From NCBI RefSeq assembly GCF_005771675.1, contig NZ_VAJM01000008.1, positions 1 to 64,000 on the forward strand: DNA of 64,000 nucleotides, read 5' to 3'. The translations under genes and the position numbers were made by a program. Below are positions 13,176 to 17,664 of this stretch, piece by piece. How positions within the stretch are numbered: position 1 is the first letter of the stretch; each line of letters starts with the position of its first letter. Origin of the DNA: Hymenobacter jeollabukensis. GTDB taxonomy: Bacteria > Bacteroidota > Bacteroidia > Cytophagales > Hymenobacteraceae. The notes beneath the pieces were generated by a model. That model was not told the DNA's origin. It was given only the letters and a program-made list of their open reading frames with translations, and made no database searches.

Positions 13176-15581
13176 CTATTTCTTACCGATGAAATTGTAC
13201 TGCACGCCCGCCGATACCGTGCGCGGGGCGCCGGGCGTGTAGGTGGTGCGGTCGGTGCGGGCGTTGCCGCGGGTGGCGGCGTTGGCGTACAGCTCGTCGG
13301 TCAGGTTTAGCACGTTCACGAAGACTTCCACCGTTTCGCGCCAGCTGTAGCCGGCGCGGGCGTTGAGCAAACTCACGCCGCGGGCCCCGAACAGGGTCCG
13401 GTCGTCGTAGCGCACGCGCTCCACCTGGTCCTGGTACCAGGGGCCGATGCGCTGGTACTCCACCGCCGCGCGCAGGCCCGGCAGCCAGCGGGGCTTGTAG
13501 GTCAGCTCGGCGTTGGCCACCCAGCGCGGGGCCTGGGGCATGTCCTTGCCGTTCACGTTCTGCACCGCGTCGCTGGCGTTGGTGCTGAGCACGAACCGCT
13601 CGAAGCGGTGCGCCGCGTTGGTGCCGCCGACGCGGAAAAACAGCTCCGCGGTGGGCTTCCAGGTCAGGCCGTACTCCACGCCCCTGTGTCGGGTTTTGCC
13701 CGCGCTCTGGTAGTCGGTGGAACCATCGGGCTGGCGGATGCTCAGCAACTCGTTGCGCCCGTCGAGCTGGTACAGGGCCACGTCGACGTACACCTTGCCC
13801 GCCATCAACGAGGCCCAGCCGCCGACCTCGTGGTTGCTGAAGCGGGCGGGCGTCAGGTTGTAGTAGAAATCGGCCGGCACGCTCACGCCGCCGGTCGTCA
13901 CGCCGGTGCCGGGGCGCTTGCGGAAGATGGAGGTGAGGCCCGGCGGCGCGAAGCCCCGCGAGTAGTTGGCGTACAGCCCACGGCCGTGGCCCAGGTCGTA
14001 GGTCAGCCCGATTTTGGGCGTAGCCTGCTGGTAGGCCTTTGTGCCCCGCGACTGATCCAGCCGGTTCTGGTAGTCAAACGACATCCGATCAAAGCGCCCG
14101 CCCAGCGTCACTTGCAGGCGGCGCAGCGGGTGCACATCGAGCTGGGTGTACACGGCCGAGCTGACGAGGTCGGTGGCGTAGTCGGCAATGGGTAAATCGG
14201 GCCGGTCGGCGGTGATGGTGTAGCGCTCCACCGACTTGCCGCCGGGCCGCAGCTGGGCCGCTAGGTCGATCTGGTGGGCGTCGTAGCGGGTGGGGGAGTA
14301 GTCGAGGCTGGCGCCGGCCAGCAGGCGCGAGTCCAGCCACTGCCAGCGCAGGCTGTGCTGGGCCAGCAGCCCGTAGCTGCGGAAGCGGCTCACGTTCACC
14401 TCCCCGCGGGCCTTATTGGGGTCGTTGGTGGCCGAAGCGGTGGGGTTCCAGCGGATGCCATAGCTCGGATTCTGGCCCAGCGCGTTGTCGCGGAAGTAGC
14501 TGGTGAGCGAAGTCGACTGCCGCTCCGACCACTGTTGCTCAGCCGTGAGGCGGGCGCGCAGGGCGTAGGCCTTGCGGTAGGTGAAGTCGGAGGTGCTGGA
14601 ATACTCGCGCCGGTAGTAGGCCACGCTGTCCACCGCGCTGCTGGTCTGCGAGTCGTAGTCATTCACCGAGCCGGCCGCCGTCAGCCGCAGCTGCTGGCTC
14701 AGCGCGTACTCCACCCGGGCGTTCAAGGAGGCCTTGTTGTAGTCCGACGACGCCAGCCAACTGTTGCGCTGCCGGGCCACGTAGCCGCTCACGAAGGCCC
14801 CGAGCTTCGCGGTAATCATGCCCCCGCCCGCAGCCTGCGCGCGGCGGTAGCCGTACTGGTCGCCCTGCACACCGATGCTGGCGGTGGGCACGCTGGTGGG
14901 CCGCTTGGTCAGCACGTTGAGGGCCCCGCCCACAGCCTCCGGCCCGTAGAGCGAGGAAGCCGGGCCCTTCACCACTTCGATGGAGTTGATGGCCAGCGGG
15001 TTGGTTTCGAGCAGAGCGTTGTGGTTGAACACGCCCATGGGCCGCAGCGGAATGCCGTCTTCCAGGTACAGGAAATAGGCCGCCGTGCCGAAGGGCTGCC
15101 GAATGCCCATGGCGTGCTGCTCGTTGCCGTAGTTGAGCATCACCACGCCCGGCACTTTGTTGACCAGCTCCACCAGCAGGGTGGGCTTGGTGTCCTGAAT
15201 GACGGTCGGCGTGATTTTGCTGATGGCCACCGGCGCGTCGGTGCGCAGCTGGGCCTCGCGCGAGGCCGTCACCACCACCGTCTGCAAGTCCTGCACGGCC
15301 GGCACTAGGGCCACGCGCAGCGGCCCCGGGCCCACGGCCACGGTCTGCGGCTGGTAGCCCACGGCCGTTACCACCAGCTCCGTAGCCGTGGTGGCGAGGT
15401 TGAATTGCCCGCTGGCATCGGTGGCGGTGCCGGTAGCCCCGTCCGGGGTACGCACCGTGGCCCCGACGAGCGGCTCCTTGGTCGTTGCGTCGAAAATGCG
15501 GCCCTGGCAGGCGCGCTGCTGCGCCCGGGCCGCCGGGCCCCCGACGAGGGCCACGAACAGCATTGGTAGTGCTTGTTTCAC
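13176..15581 (-). CDS. TonB-dependent receptor with carboxypeptidase-regulatory N-domain
   Basis: The 801-residue product has a signal peptide (KQALPMLFVALVGGPAARAQ), a CarboxypepD_reg-like domain (about 25-110; EPLVGATVRTPDG), a TonB box-like VVVTASR segment, and a plug (ELVNKVPGVVML, IEVVKGPASSLYGPEAVGG). A 22-strand-type barrel ends VSAGVQYNFIGKK. The plug motif VKGPASxLYGxxAVGG is that of siderophore/metal-chelate receptors. A GTG start is chosen because it adds a Lys before the hydrophobic core; an ATG six codons later is also possible. Upstream on the same strand lies the CNGKC membrane protein and downstream the PepSY protein, so the three form a probable iron or copper acquisition unit. 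Confidence 0.88.
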   Translation of the reverse strand: MKQALPMLFVALVGGPAARAQQRACQGRIFDATTKEPLVGATVRTPDGATGTATDASGQFNLATTATELVVTAVGYQPQTVAVGPGPLRVALVPAVQDLQTVVVTASREAQLRTDAPVAISKITPTVIQDTKPTLLVELVNKVPGVVMLNYGNEQHAMGIRQPFGTAAYFLYLEDGIPLRPMGVFNHNALLETNPLAINSIEVVKGPASSLYGPEAVGGALNVLTKRPTSVPTASIGVQGDQYGYRRAQAAGGGMITAKLGAFVSGYVARQRNSWLASSDYNKASLNARVEYALSQQLRLTAAGSVNDYDSQTSSAVDSVAYYRREYSSTSDFTYRKAYALRARLTAEQQWSERQSTSLTSYFRDNALGQNPSYGIRWNPTASATNDPNKARGEVNVSRFRSYGLLAQHSLRWQWLDSRLLAGASLDYSPTRYDAHQIDLAAQLRPGGKSVERYTITADRPDLPIADYATDLVSSAVYTQLDVHPLRRLQVTLGGRFDRMSFDYQNRLDQSRGTKAYQQATPKIGLTYDLGHGRGLYANYSRGFAPPGLTSIFRKRPGTGVTTGGVSVPADFYYNLTPARFSNHEVGGWASLMAGKVYVDVALYQLDGRNELLSIRQPDGSTDYQSAGKTRHRGVEYGLTWKPTAELFFRVGGTNAAHRFERFVLSTNASDAVQNVNGKDMPQAPRWVANAELTYKPRWLPGLRAAVEYQRIGPWYQDQVERVRYDDRTLFGARGVSLLNARAGYSWRETVEVFVNVLNLTDELYANAATRGNARTDRTTYTPGAPRTVSAGVQYNFIGKK

Positions 15582-15688
15582 TGCGTGATAAGCTGATTGG
15601 GGCAGGCCAACGCCGGCGCCGGACGCCACGAACGGCGCCGCGCCGGACCACGCTGGTCCGCCGAATTCCGGGAAAAAACGGGAAGCAA

Positions 15689-16075
15689 TCAGCCCTCCGC
15701 GGGCGGGTAATCGGGGCCAGGCCGGGCCCAGGCGTAGGCGGCTACGCGCAGGGTGGCGTAGCGCGGCGGGGCCGCGGCAAACCAGGCCGGCGCGGCCGGC
15801 AGCAGCGCGGCCGGGGCCGGGCAGGCCAGCACGATGTCTTGGAAGGCCTGCTTGTGGCTGCCCGGCTGCTCTTTGGCCTCGCGGGCGTCGGCGGCTTTCA
15901 GCTGCTTGCGCAGGTGGCACTTGCCGTTGCAGTGCATTTGGGGCTTGTCGCGGTTGATGCAGAGCACCCGCGCCACGTAGTCGCGCTGCAGCCACCAGCT
16001 GGCCACAATGCCCAGGCGCCCGGCGCAGTGCACCGAGAGCGAGCAGAGAAGCAGGATGGCAATGGCCTGGCGCAT
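15689..16075 (-). CDS. Small membrane protein with CNGKC motif
   Basis: The 128-residue product has an N-terminal hydrophobic segment (MRQAIAILLLCSLSVHCAG). A conserved-looking block follows: LCINRDKP, then C49-N-G-K-C53-H54 and RKQLKAA. Two Cys flanking NGK plus an adjacent His could bind metal or haem. Proteins of this shape recur upstream of TonB-dependent receptor genes in Bacteroidota, but I know of no assigned function. The C-terminal half is Ala/Pro-rich and low in complexity, with a second possible hydrophobic stretch. It reads into the receptor gene after 107 bp on the same strand. A role in metal delivery or sensing is inferred from position and the motif. Confidence 0.72.
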   Translation of the reverse strand: MRQAIAILLLCSLSVHCAGRLGIVASWWLQRDYVARVLCINRDKPQMHCNGKCHLRKQLKAADAREAKEQPGSHKQAFQDIVLACPAPAALLPAAPAWFAAAPPRYATLRVAAYAWARPGPDYPPAEG

Positions 16076-16296
16076 GCGCGGGGGAAGTCAGGACGACGGA
16101 ACTGGCCGTCTGTTCGAGTCGGCCCCGGCAACGGGTTGCTGCCGGGCTCGATTGAAGCCGCAAAGGAACAACCCGCGGGCCCAAGCGCCAAACCCGGCCC
16201 AGGGTAGCCGAACTGCTAGGCCGGAAAATGCGTAACGATATATCCCATGCGCACACAGGAAATCGGTGGCCCCGGAAAAATTATTTGTCTTGATTT

Positions 16297-16328
16297 TTTG
16301 GTGGCGTAATAATCGGTTCCTATTTTAG
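16297..16328 (+). promoter_or_regulatory. Promoter of the asnA leader
   Basis: TTTG (16297-16300) and TATTTTAG (16321-16328) are separated by 20 bp, close to the Bacteroidota consensus (-33 TTTG, -7 TAnnTTTG). Transcription would start near 16335, about 20 nt before the leader peptide ATG. A weaker candidate lies about 14 bp upstream (TAATAATC). Confidence 0.55.
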
Positions 16329-16355
16329 CCTTCGAAACGCTCCCAAGGCACCCTC

Positions 16356-16433
16356 ATGCGTCAGTTCGCCAACAGCCTCAATAACCAGAATCGGAACAAT
16401 AATCTGTTCCGAGATGGAAGGCTATTGGTCTGA
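16356..16433 (+). CDS. Asn-rich leader peptide of the asnA attenuator
   Basis: A 25-codon frame with seven Asn codons (at 16371, 16380, 16383, 16389, 16395, 16398 and 16401) reads MRQFANSLNNQNRNNN and then LFRDGRLLV before TGA at 16431. Four of the seven Asn codons fall within the last 15 nt of the Asn-rich block, where a ribosome short of Asn-tRNA would stall. The downstream gene makes asparagine, which fits the classic rule for leader-peptide attenuation. The frame is far too biased for chance in a GC-rich genome. It is too short for usual gene callers. Confidence 0.85.
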   Translation: MRQFANSLNNQNRNNNLFRDGRLLV

Positions 16434-16490
16434 TTGGCAGACTCCTAATCAACTGTTGATTTTGTAAGCCTTCCGTTTTTCGGAAGGCTT
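16391..16490 (+). promoter_or_regulatory. Attenuator: alternating hairpins between leader peptide and asnA
   Basis: Hairpins in order are 16391-16412 (TCGGAACA/TGTTCCGA, perfect, over the Asn codons), 16428-16442 (GTCTG/CAGAC), 16447-16461 (AATCAA/TTGATT) and the terminator 16466-16490. GGAAGGCT at 16416-16423 is exactly complementary to AGCCTTCC at 16467-16474, the left arm of the terminator. Pairing of these two would enclose the two small hairpins and block termination. A ribosome finishing at the stop codon (16431-16433) would cover 16416-16423 and let the terminator form. A ribosome stalled at the Asn codons would leave it free. Confidence 0.75.
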
Positions 16491-16496
16491 TTTTTT
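16466..16496 (+). terminator. Intrinsic terminator in the asnA leader
   Basis: A perfect 10-bp stem (AAGCCTTCCG / CGGAAGGCTT) with a TTTTT loop runs into eight consecutive T's. It lies 33 nt after the leader peptide stop and 137 bp before the asnA ATG, as expected for an attenuator. Confidence 0.92.
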
Positions 16497-16632
16497 CGCC
16501 CCTACGCGCGCATTTCCGGGTTCGTGACACCGAAAAAACAACGGGTTTTTTCGGCCGGGCACAGTCTTGCCAATACTTGGCAAAATCCTAAACGAAAAAC
16601 ACTTTCTCATACCTCCAAAACGCACGTTAATT

Positions 16633-17664
16633 ATGGAAACGGCCTCCGCCCAAACCCTGAGCCCCGCTGAGCTGCTCAAAACCGAAGAAGCCATCAGCTT
16701 CGTGAAGGATACCTTCGCCAAGGAGCTGGCCCGGCAGCTGCAGCTCACCAAAGTGTCCTCGCCCATTGCCGTGCTCGACGGCACCGGCATCAACGACGAC
16801 TTGAACGGCATTGAGCGCCCCGTCTCGTTTCCCATCAAGGCCCTCGACGAGCAAAAGGCCGTGGTGGTACACTCCCTGGCTAAGTGGAAGCGCCTGCGCC
16901 TCACGCAGCTGGGCATCCCGGCCGGCCGCGGCATCCTTACCGACATGCGCGCCCTGCGCCCCGACGAGGACTATTCGCCCATTCACTCGATCTACGTGGA
17001 CCAGTGGGACTGGGAAAAGCACATCCTGCCCGAGCAGCGCACCATCCCGTTCCTGCGGGAGACGGTGGCCAAAATCTACGAGGCGCTGCGCACCACCGAA
17101 CTGCGCGTGGCCGAGGAGTACGCGGACATTACGCCCATTCTGCCCGAGCAAATCACCTTCATCCACGCCGAGGAGCTGCTGCGGCGCTACCCGGAGCTGA
17201 CGGTGAAGCAGCGCGAAACGGAAGCCGCCCGGGAGTACGGTGCGGTGTTTATCATCGGCATCGGCGGCGAGCTAAGCCACGGCGAAATCCACGACGGCCG
17301 CGCCCCCGACTACGACGACTGGAGCACCGAAACCGAAGCCGGCCGCCGCGGGCTCAACGGTGACATCCTACTCTGGCACCCCGGCCTGCAGTCGGCCTTC
17401 GAGGTGTCGAGCATGGGCATCCGCGTCGACAAAGCGGCCCTGCTGAAGCAGCTGGCGGTGCGCGGCTGCCCCGAGCGCGCCGAGCTGGCCTTCCACAAGC
17501 TGCTGCTCGAAGGCGGGCTGACCGAAAGCATCGGCGGCGGCATCGGCCAGTCGCGCGTGACTATGTTTATGCTGCGCAAAACCCACATTGGCGAAGTGCA
17601 GGTGAGCATCTGGCCGGAAGCCGTGCGCGCCGAGCTGGCGGGCACGGGCGTGGAGCTGCTGTAG
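16633..17664 (+). CDS. asnA: Aspartate-ammonia ligase (asparagine synthetase A)
   Basis: The 343-residue product matches the ammonia-dependent asparagine synthetase: residues 24-40 (ISFVKDTFAKEL), DGTGINDDLNGIERPVSF, MRALRPDED, SIYVDQWDWEK, then GIGGELSHGEIHDGRAPDYDDW and the C-terminal GGGIGQSRVTMFMLRKTHIGEVQVSIW. It joins ATP, aspartate and ammonia to give asparagine, AMP and PPi, using a class II aaRS-like fold. Length is close to the usual 330. The ATG sits three bases after a TTAATT stretch, and the region upstream is non-coding leader. Expression is probably governed by the Asn-rich leader peptide and terminator upstream. Two further hairpins lie between terminator and start (about 16531-16555 and 16566-16582). 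Confidence 0.97.
   Translation: METASAQTLSPAELLKTEEAISFVKDTFAKELARQLQLTKVSSPIAVLDGTGINDDLNGIERPVSFPIKALDEQKAVVVHSLAKWKRLRLTQLGIPAGRGILTDMRALRPDEDYSPIHSIYVDQWDWEKHILPEQRTIPFLRETVAKIYEALRTTELRVAEEYADITPILPEQITFIHAEELLRRYPELTVKQRETEAAREYGAVFIIGIGGELSHGEIHDGRAPDYDDWSTETEAGRRGLNGDILLWHPGLQSAFEVSSMGIRVDKAALLKQLAVRGCPERAELAFHKLLLEGGLTESIGGGIGQSRVTMFMLRKTHIGEVQVSIWPEAVRAELAGTGVELL

Follow-up and report, generated by a model that had tools for sequence, protein, structure and literature searches.

The attenuators of the trp and his operons combine a leader peptide rich in the end product of the pathway with four RNA regions able to form the alternative pairings 1:2, 2:3 and 3:4, and they precede a gene of the same pathway. 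The element that we describe here is alike in layout to these systems (Rfam Trp_leader and His_leader) and differs from them by its amino acid, asparagine, and by its gene, asnA. For Flavobacterium psychrophilum, strong indications of attenuation by leader peptides ahead of amino-acid operons were reported, and the word asparagine is absent from the main text of that paper (PMC9723704). The Bacteroid-trp RNA (RF01692), named after trp, is like the asnA element a cis-regulatory candidate of Bacteroidetes, according to the accessible part of its description (PMC2864571). T-box regulation of asparagine-related genes also senses uncharged tRNA; the part of the survey that we could consult gives T-boxes in none of seven Bacteroidetes/Chlorobi genomes (PMC2494555). 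No asparagine leader was found in the literature searched; subscription papers lay outside its scope, and the comparative study Lopatovskaya 2010 could contain one. Altogether, the kind of attenuator is classical, and its use for asparagine and the tandem form presented below look new.

The locus was studied in a window of 64,000 nucleotides of Hymenobacter jeollabukensis, by which we mean the whole stretch of DNA analysed. None of the Rfam families, T-box and leader families included, reached its gathering score in this window. This holds for Trp_leader, His_leader, Leu_leader, Thr_leader, Phe_leader and Bacteroid-trp, and the best sub-threshold match near the element was Phe_leader with 24.9 bits vs 55. 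RF01692 gave no match between 16200 and 16700 at E-values up to 5, and the T-box model gave none in the window, including in a sub-threshold search near the element. The same search on 15 other loci returned only the TPP riboswitch and tRNA. The TPP riboswitch (RF00059) lies near asnA in one locus of the Hymenobacter clade (L014, 1045-1141, minus strand).

The leader peptide MRQFANSLNNQNRNNNLFRDGRLLV is encoded by an ATG frame on the plus strand (16356..16433) of 25 residues, seven of them Asn, the first bases of the Asn codons being at 16371, 16380, 16383, 16389, 16395, 16398 and 16401; the frame and the count are as given in the preliminary description. The proposed regulated gene, asnA (16633..17664, plus strand), encodes an aspartate-ammonia ligase, assigned as AsnA by a sequence domain search (PF03590, 330.6 bits, E 7.5e-99), and is the single asnA match in the genome. 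The amino acid made by this enzyme is the one enriched in the leader. Among 755 short frames of the window (10-60 codons, both strands, collapsed by C-terminus), the leader stands out with 7 Asn in 16 residues, the runner-up having 3, and no frame with 7 Asn in 16 was obtained in 2000 shuffles of 16300-16632. Upstream of the leader, a likely promoter (16294..16328, plus strand) can be read from the sequence as a T-rich −33-like box TTTTTTGG (16294-16301) and a −7-like box TATTTTAG (16321-16328), the latter called with the consensus TAnnTTTG, as found in the part of the source consulted (PMC9723704). In 44 of 55 relatives, a loosely −7-like box precedes the leader ATG by 10-60 nt, with a median of 38 nt; in the window, transcription would start at about 16333-16336. 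A further hairpin, CCGAAAAAAC...GTTTTTTCGG (16530-16554), lies in the gap between the terminator and asnA and has no T tail; other Hymenobacter carry a hairpin CTCCC...GGGAG in the same region, also without T tail.

Four regions, all on the plus strand, can be delimited. Region 1, GCCAACAGCC (16368..16377), lies inside the leader codons and was defined from minimum free energy folds, in which its helix reaches T16378. Region 2 (16416..16429) consists of the antiterminator arm GGAAGGCT (16416-16423) followed by ATTGGT, and is the complement of region 3, AGCCTTCC (16467..16474), which is common to the antiterminator and the terminator. Region 4 and the T tract (16482..16496) comprise a second GGAAGGCT (16482-16489) and eight T's (16489-16496). 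The intrinsic terminator AAGCCTTCCG-TTTTT-CGGAAGGCTT (16466-16490) was recovered as first described, and so was the exact complementarity of its left arm to 16416-16423, in the last leader codons and near the leader stop. In the folds, a long hairpin is formed by GCCAA-AGCCT (16368-16378) and AGGCT-TTGGT (16419-16429), and encloses an inner hairpin TCGGAACA/TGTTCCGA (16391..16412) that contains the last three Asn codons. The whole window leader is predicted to fold as 1:2 plus 3:4 (−52 kcal/mol), and the stretch left free under a ribosome placed on the Asn codons as the 2:3 antiterminator (−20.9 kcal/mol). Folds and pairing tests indicate that 2:3 and 3:4 are mutually exclusive.

The preliminary description had sought region 1 upstream of the start site, in the motif AGCCTTC (16327-16333). 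This candidate was abandoned: it overlaps the likely −7 box TATTTTAG, and only 2 of 55 relatives (L001 and L002, one being the window's own copy) have AGCCTTC within 60 nt 5′ of the aligned leader. As judged from the predicted pairings, it is the region 1 inside the leader that completes a trp-like 1:2/2:3/3:4 system.

To place the element among relatives, 198 asnA loci were collected, one of the relative-locus collections keeping 80 of 177 relatives. Three loci without an asnA match (L161-L163) were left out, and the remaining 195 gave 151 distinct upstreams after collapsing duplicates, which our sorting divides into 59 of the Hymenobacter clade and 92 outside it, L157-L159 being assigned outside by hand. 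The gene asnA itself is found in 21 of 395 sampled Bacteroidota genomes, in 68 of 200 genomes of the family (one match being marginal) and in 8/8 genomes of the genus. We searched the asnA upstreams for Asn-rich frames before a T-tailed hairpin and built a covariance model. All 59 distinct clade upstreams, which are related sequences and do not count as independent, carry an Asn-rich leader: 55 were aligned with their terminator, three more have a terminator (L183, L185, L187), and in the last (L174) the hairpin was missed by the terminator scan and the model matches over its full length with 124 bits. In each of the 55 aligned relatives, the leader starts with ATG, overlaps region 2 and has 5-9 Asn codons (median 8) ahead of this region. 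Downstream of the Asn codons, the RNA rather than the peptide is kept, GGAAGGCTATTG being read as GRLLV or WKAIA in different frames. Both the Asn codons and the complementarity, whose loss in related asnA upstreams was named at the outset as speaking against an attenuator, are conserved. In the H. jeollabukensis genome, the model has a strong match only at asnA (E 1e-23); among the 150 of 591 candidates that were scored, the next stands at 0.1 and the other matches are as weak or weaker, and in one of these that we inspected (L281) no leader was found.

The 1:2 pairing is present in the individual folds of 55/55 relatives with 8-16 pairs, counts that come from single-sequence folding, a procedure favouring standard pairs. 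These folds replaced the consensus fold of the MAFFT alignment, in which 1:2 was not seen and region 1 is apparently misaligned by 1-2 columns. Compensatory changes are observed at alignment column 78 (C-G 9, G-U 5, A-U 13, G-C 27) and column 74 (U-A 39, C-G 8). Moreover, the mean energy of the own 1:2 duplexes is −14.8 kcal/mol vs −10.8 with divergent partners and −6.6 when region 1 is shuffled, and of 25 model-aligned rows, 12 of which belong to the clade and 13 to loci outside it, 23 form at least 8 pairs. For 2:3, 94.9% of the cells are paired over the same 25 rows, vs 40-70% when slid; seven cells show two-sided changes vs 2.3 in shuffles, a value reached by 0/500 of them. Counted by pairs, the signal of these phylum-wide rows is less clear (3 vs 1.8, reached by 94/500 shuffles). 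Within Hymenobacter, 2:3 is 98.9% paired and nearly invariant, and because it hardly varies there its covariation is weak, with one pair showing a two-sided change (reached by 71/500 shuffles). Local compensations occur in L059 (GAAAGGCT/AGCCTTTC) and in L025 (GGGAGGCT/AGCCCTCC), region 4 of the latter not having changed in step. In alignments, and in the folds of L011 and L062, the antiterminator of some species is lengthened by an inner stem, ATTGTTC/GAACAAT, GTTGTTC/GAACAAC or ATTGCTC/GAGCAAT. In 30 non-Hymenobacter units, a second L133 unit that reuses the same leader having been left out, the own arm scored 12.4 vs 4.0 for swapped arms, with a maximum of 7.0 in 300; in this analysis 16 of 57 clade units gave no arm, at least partly since an Asn beyond the arm was taken as the last one. 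The 3:4 pairing, to which the alignment was fitted, is 99% paired with 10 two-sided cells (0/500 shuffles).

The distance between the Asn codons and region 2 is also constrained. Counted from the start of the last Asn codon ahead of the arm, it amounts to 11-19 nt in 53 leaders out of 55 (sd 2.5), with 15 in the window; in the two others, an Asn codon stands 4 nt 5′ of the arm. In the 30 non-Hymenobacter units, an arm of 6 pairs was not found in six; in the other 24 the arm always starts 9-19 nt 3′ of the last Asn codon, when about 55 positions were open. Such a spacing is close to the distance to the leading edge of a ribosome, so that, with the last Asn codon in the A site, the front of the ribosome would come to lie immediately 5′ of the arm.

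Altogether, we consider it highly probable that asnA is controlled by a ribosome-mediated transcription attenuator of the classical four-region kind, with asparagine as its specific signal. Sequence and comparison show the leader with its Asn codons and the three alternative pairings, how these are conserved, and the spacing; from them we infer the start site, translation of the leader, stalling and how the system responds to asparagine. Under scarcity of Asn-tRNA, the ribosome would stall on the Asn codons and block the pairing of region 1, its front edge halting just short of region 2; the latter, left free, would form the 2:3 antiterminator and RNA polymerase would read into asnA. When asparagine is plentiful, the ribosome would proceed over region 2, 3:4 would form and transcription would end at the T tract. 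Without a ribosome, 1:2 would form and the terminator would win. The trp/his logic proposed at first for this leader is well supported by the conservation, covariation and geometry of the predicted structures.

How termination is brought about could vary between leaders. The position of the stop codon wanders (sd 14.2 over the 55 leaders): in 19 of them, the window's included, it is within 15 nt of the arm, in 36 it lies farther downstream than that, and 3/55 frames extend up to or through region 3. Masking of region 2 by a terminating ribosome can therefore not be general, and in the leaders with a distant stop the likelier termination route is a 1:2 hairpin that re-forms after ribosome release. 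The same variability would suit an asparagine attenuator in which masking of region 2 and the 1:2 hairpin matter less than a ribosome keeping regions 2 and 3 from each other, or than the timing of RNA polymerase pausing; the inner hairpin just 5′ of region 2 could in that case be a pause hairpin. We regard this variant as rather unlikely, as the 19 near stops are close enough for direct masking and the 1:2 pairing, kept in 55/55, would itself give termination after release.

Outside the clade, an Asn-rich frame precedes asnA in 21 of 92 upstreams, and each of these has a terminator. Among the 71 others, 57 lack a terminator and 14 have a terminator-like hairpin, which makes the association of frame and terminator strong ([[21,0],[14,57]], n=92, Fisher p 8e-12). 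Among the non-carriers are the Sphingobacterium loci and six loci (L139, L141, L160, L164-L166) from the same family as the window. Beyond Hymenobacter and its relatives, the element has a patchy distribution in the phylum, in divergent and at times tandem versions. In a different class of the phylum, three loci (L126, L133, L134) have asnA preceded by GC-rich Asn leaders whose arms are complementary, which suggests either a wide spread or separate origins.

The 14 terminator-like hairpins without an Asn-rich frame are what could be expected if a T-box-like or protein-bound element controlled the terminator and the frame were incidental. We hold this very improbable given that every one of the 21 frames is accompanied by a terminator, that the spacing from Asn codons to arm is nearly fixed, and that no Rfam family reaches its gathering score in the window, the matches near the element being sub-threshold only. 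Even less credible is a constitutive terminator of an upstream transcript next to a chance peptide or an unrelated small protein: the terminator is strong, but the nucleotides of region 2 are conserved despite frame changes, 1:2 and 2:3 covary, none of 188 control terminators elsewhere in asnA loci is preceded by an Asn-rich frame, and the long adjacent upstream frame (13176-16256) is on the minus strand, leaving no nearby same-strand gene in need of termination.

Leaders of the same layout, with histidine instead of asparagine, are found 5′ of hisG in Bacteroidota, in 5 of 30 upstreams and in 10 of 18 hand-picked ones; His-rich frames with terminators were noted in L208, L210, L216, L227, L228, L263, L265, L266 and L271-L277. 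One of them, the leader MNNALIINNHHHHHVSNTIRGRFMF of L263, matches the asn covariance model with 30.8 bits. At the hisG of the H. jeollabukensis genome itself (L259), no His-rich leader was found. Upstream of a homoserine dehydrogenase gene, it carries a Thr-rich leader, MRFGLTTTATTTTTARHGWVGGARTRG, followed by a terminator (L260, ~586-725, contig C12); Thr-rich leaders were seen in 0/30 phylum loci, an uninformative count because these loci mostly begin inside a long gene.

In twelve asnA loci outside the clade (L064, L065, L067, L068, L070, L075, L081, L085, L091, L099, L103 and L195, all but the last titled MAG), two Asn leaders stand in series and each is followed by a terminator of its own. 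The distance from the first terminator to the start of the second leader is 19-33 nt in 12/12 loci, and the second leader is consequently probably transcribed only through read-through. Two short ORFs in one leader acting on the same operon were described for Salmonella mgtCBR, where, in the part of the report consulted, they sense different signals, ATP and proline, whereas both members of the Bacteroidota pairs are Asn leaders (PMC3641672). In a further locus (L104), the frame of a second Asn run (MQRILINNNNNNKAPPPGG...) stays open up to asnA and is continuous with it, giving 380 aa; it is either a real fusion or a MAG assembly error.

The two units of a pair differ in their peptides and in their folds. 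In a residue window chosen after the peptides had been seen, and with the units classed purely by their position in the pair, Pro occurs at residues 2-5 after the last Asn in 12/12 second units and 0/12 first units, near-exceptions among the latter being L103, with Pro at residue 1, and L195, which has NPKN at the end. Second units have Pro-Pro in 8/12 cases and Pro directly before the stop in 8/12, and the third positions of the Pro codons vary (CCA, CCT, CCG, CCC). First-type units have a 1:2 hairpin (median z −1.8, 19 units), and second-type, or class II, units have no clear one (median z −0.3, with one unit at −2.8) among 15 units that were chosen partly by Pro after the last Asn, and that include three which are not tandem second units (L078, L094, L133). 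For the class II units, pairing of the Pro codons with the arm as a mini 1:2 hairpin found no support, the own duplexes averaging −3.79 vs −4.31 for permuted partners, with 4458 of 5000 permutations at least as good. As a pairing role for the C-rich Pro codons is unsupported, we read the Pro motif, as a hypothesis, as a peptide-level pause.

We can tentatively propose, at somewhat less than even confidence, that some Bacteroidota place two differently working asparagine attenuators in series. The first would be of the trp type with 1:2, 2:3 and 3:4; the second, without a clear 1:2, would use a Pro-based peptide brake that, in the presence of asparagine, slows the passage of the ribosome across the antiterminator arm. 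With the two read-through probabilities multiplied, the response to one amino acid would be very steep. A link between stronger attenuation and increased ribosome occupancy of leader stop codons was reported for E. coli without RF3, and this is the behaviour that a Pro brake would need (PMC5373646).

If the attenuator works as we infer, asparagine joins the amino acids sensed by leader-peptide attenuation, and in a phylum for which we found little published on leader-peptide control the asnA element offers a compact, covarying test case. The tandem arrangement, which may be a new variant of attenuation, would if true be a natural cascade with two switches for one signal, and the Pro motif predicts that slow translation termination can be a regulatory part of it.
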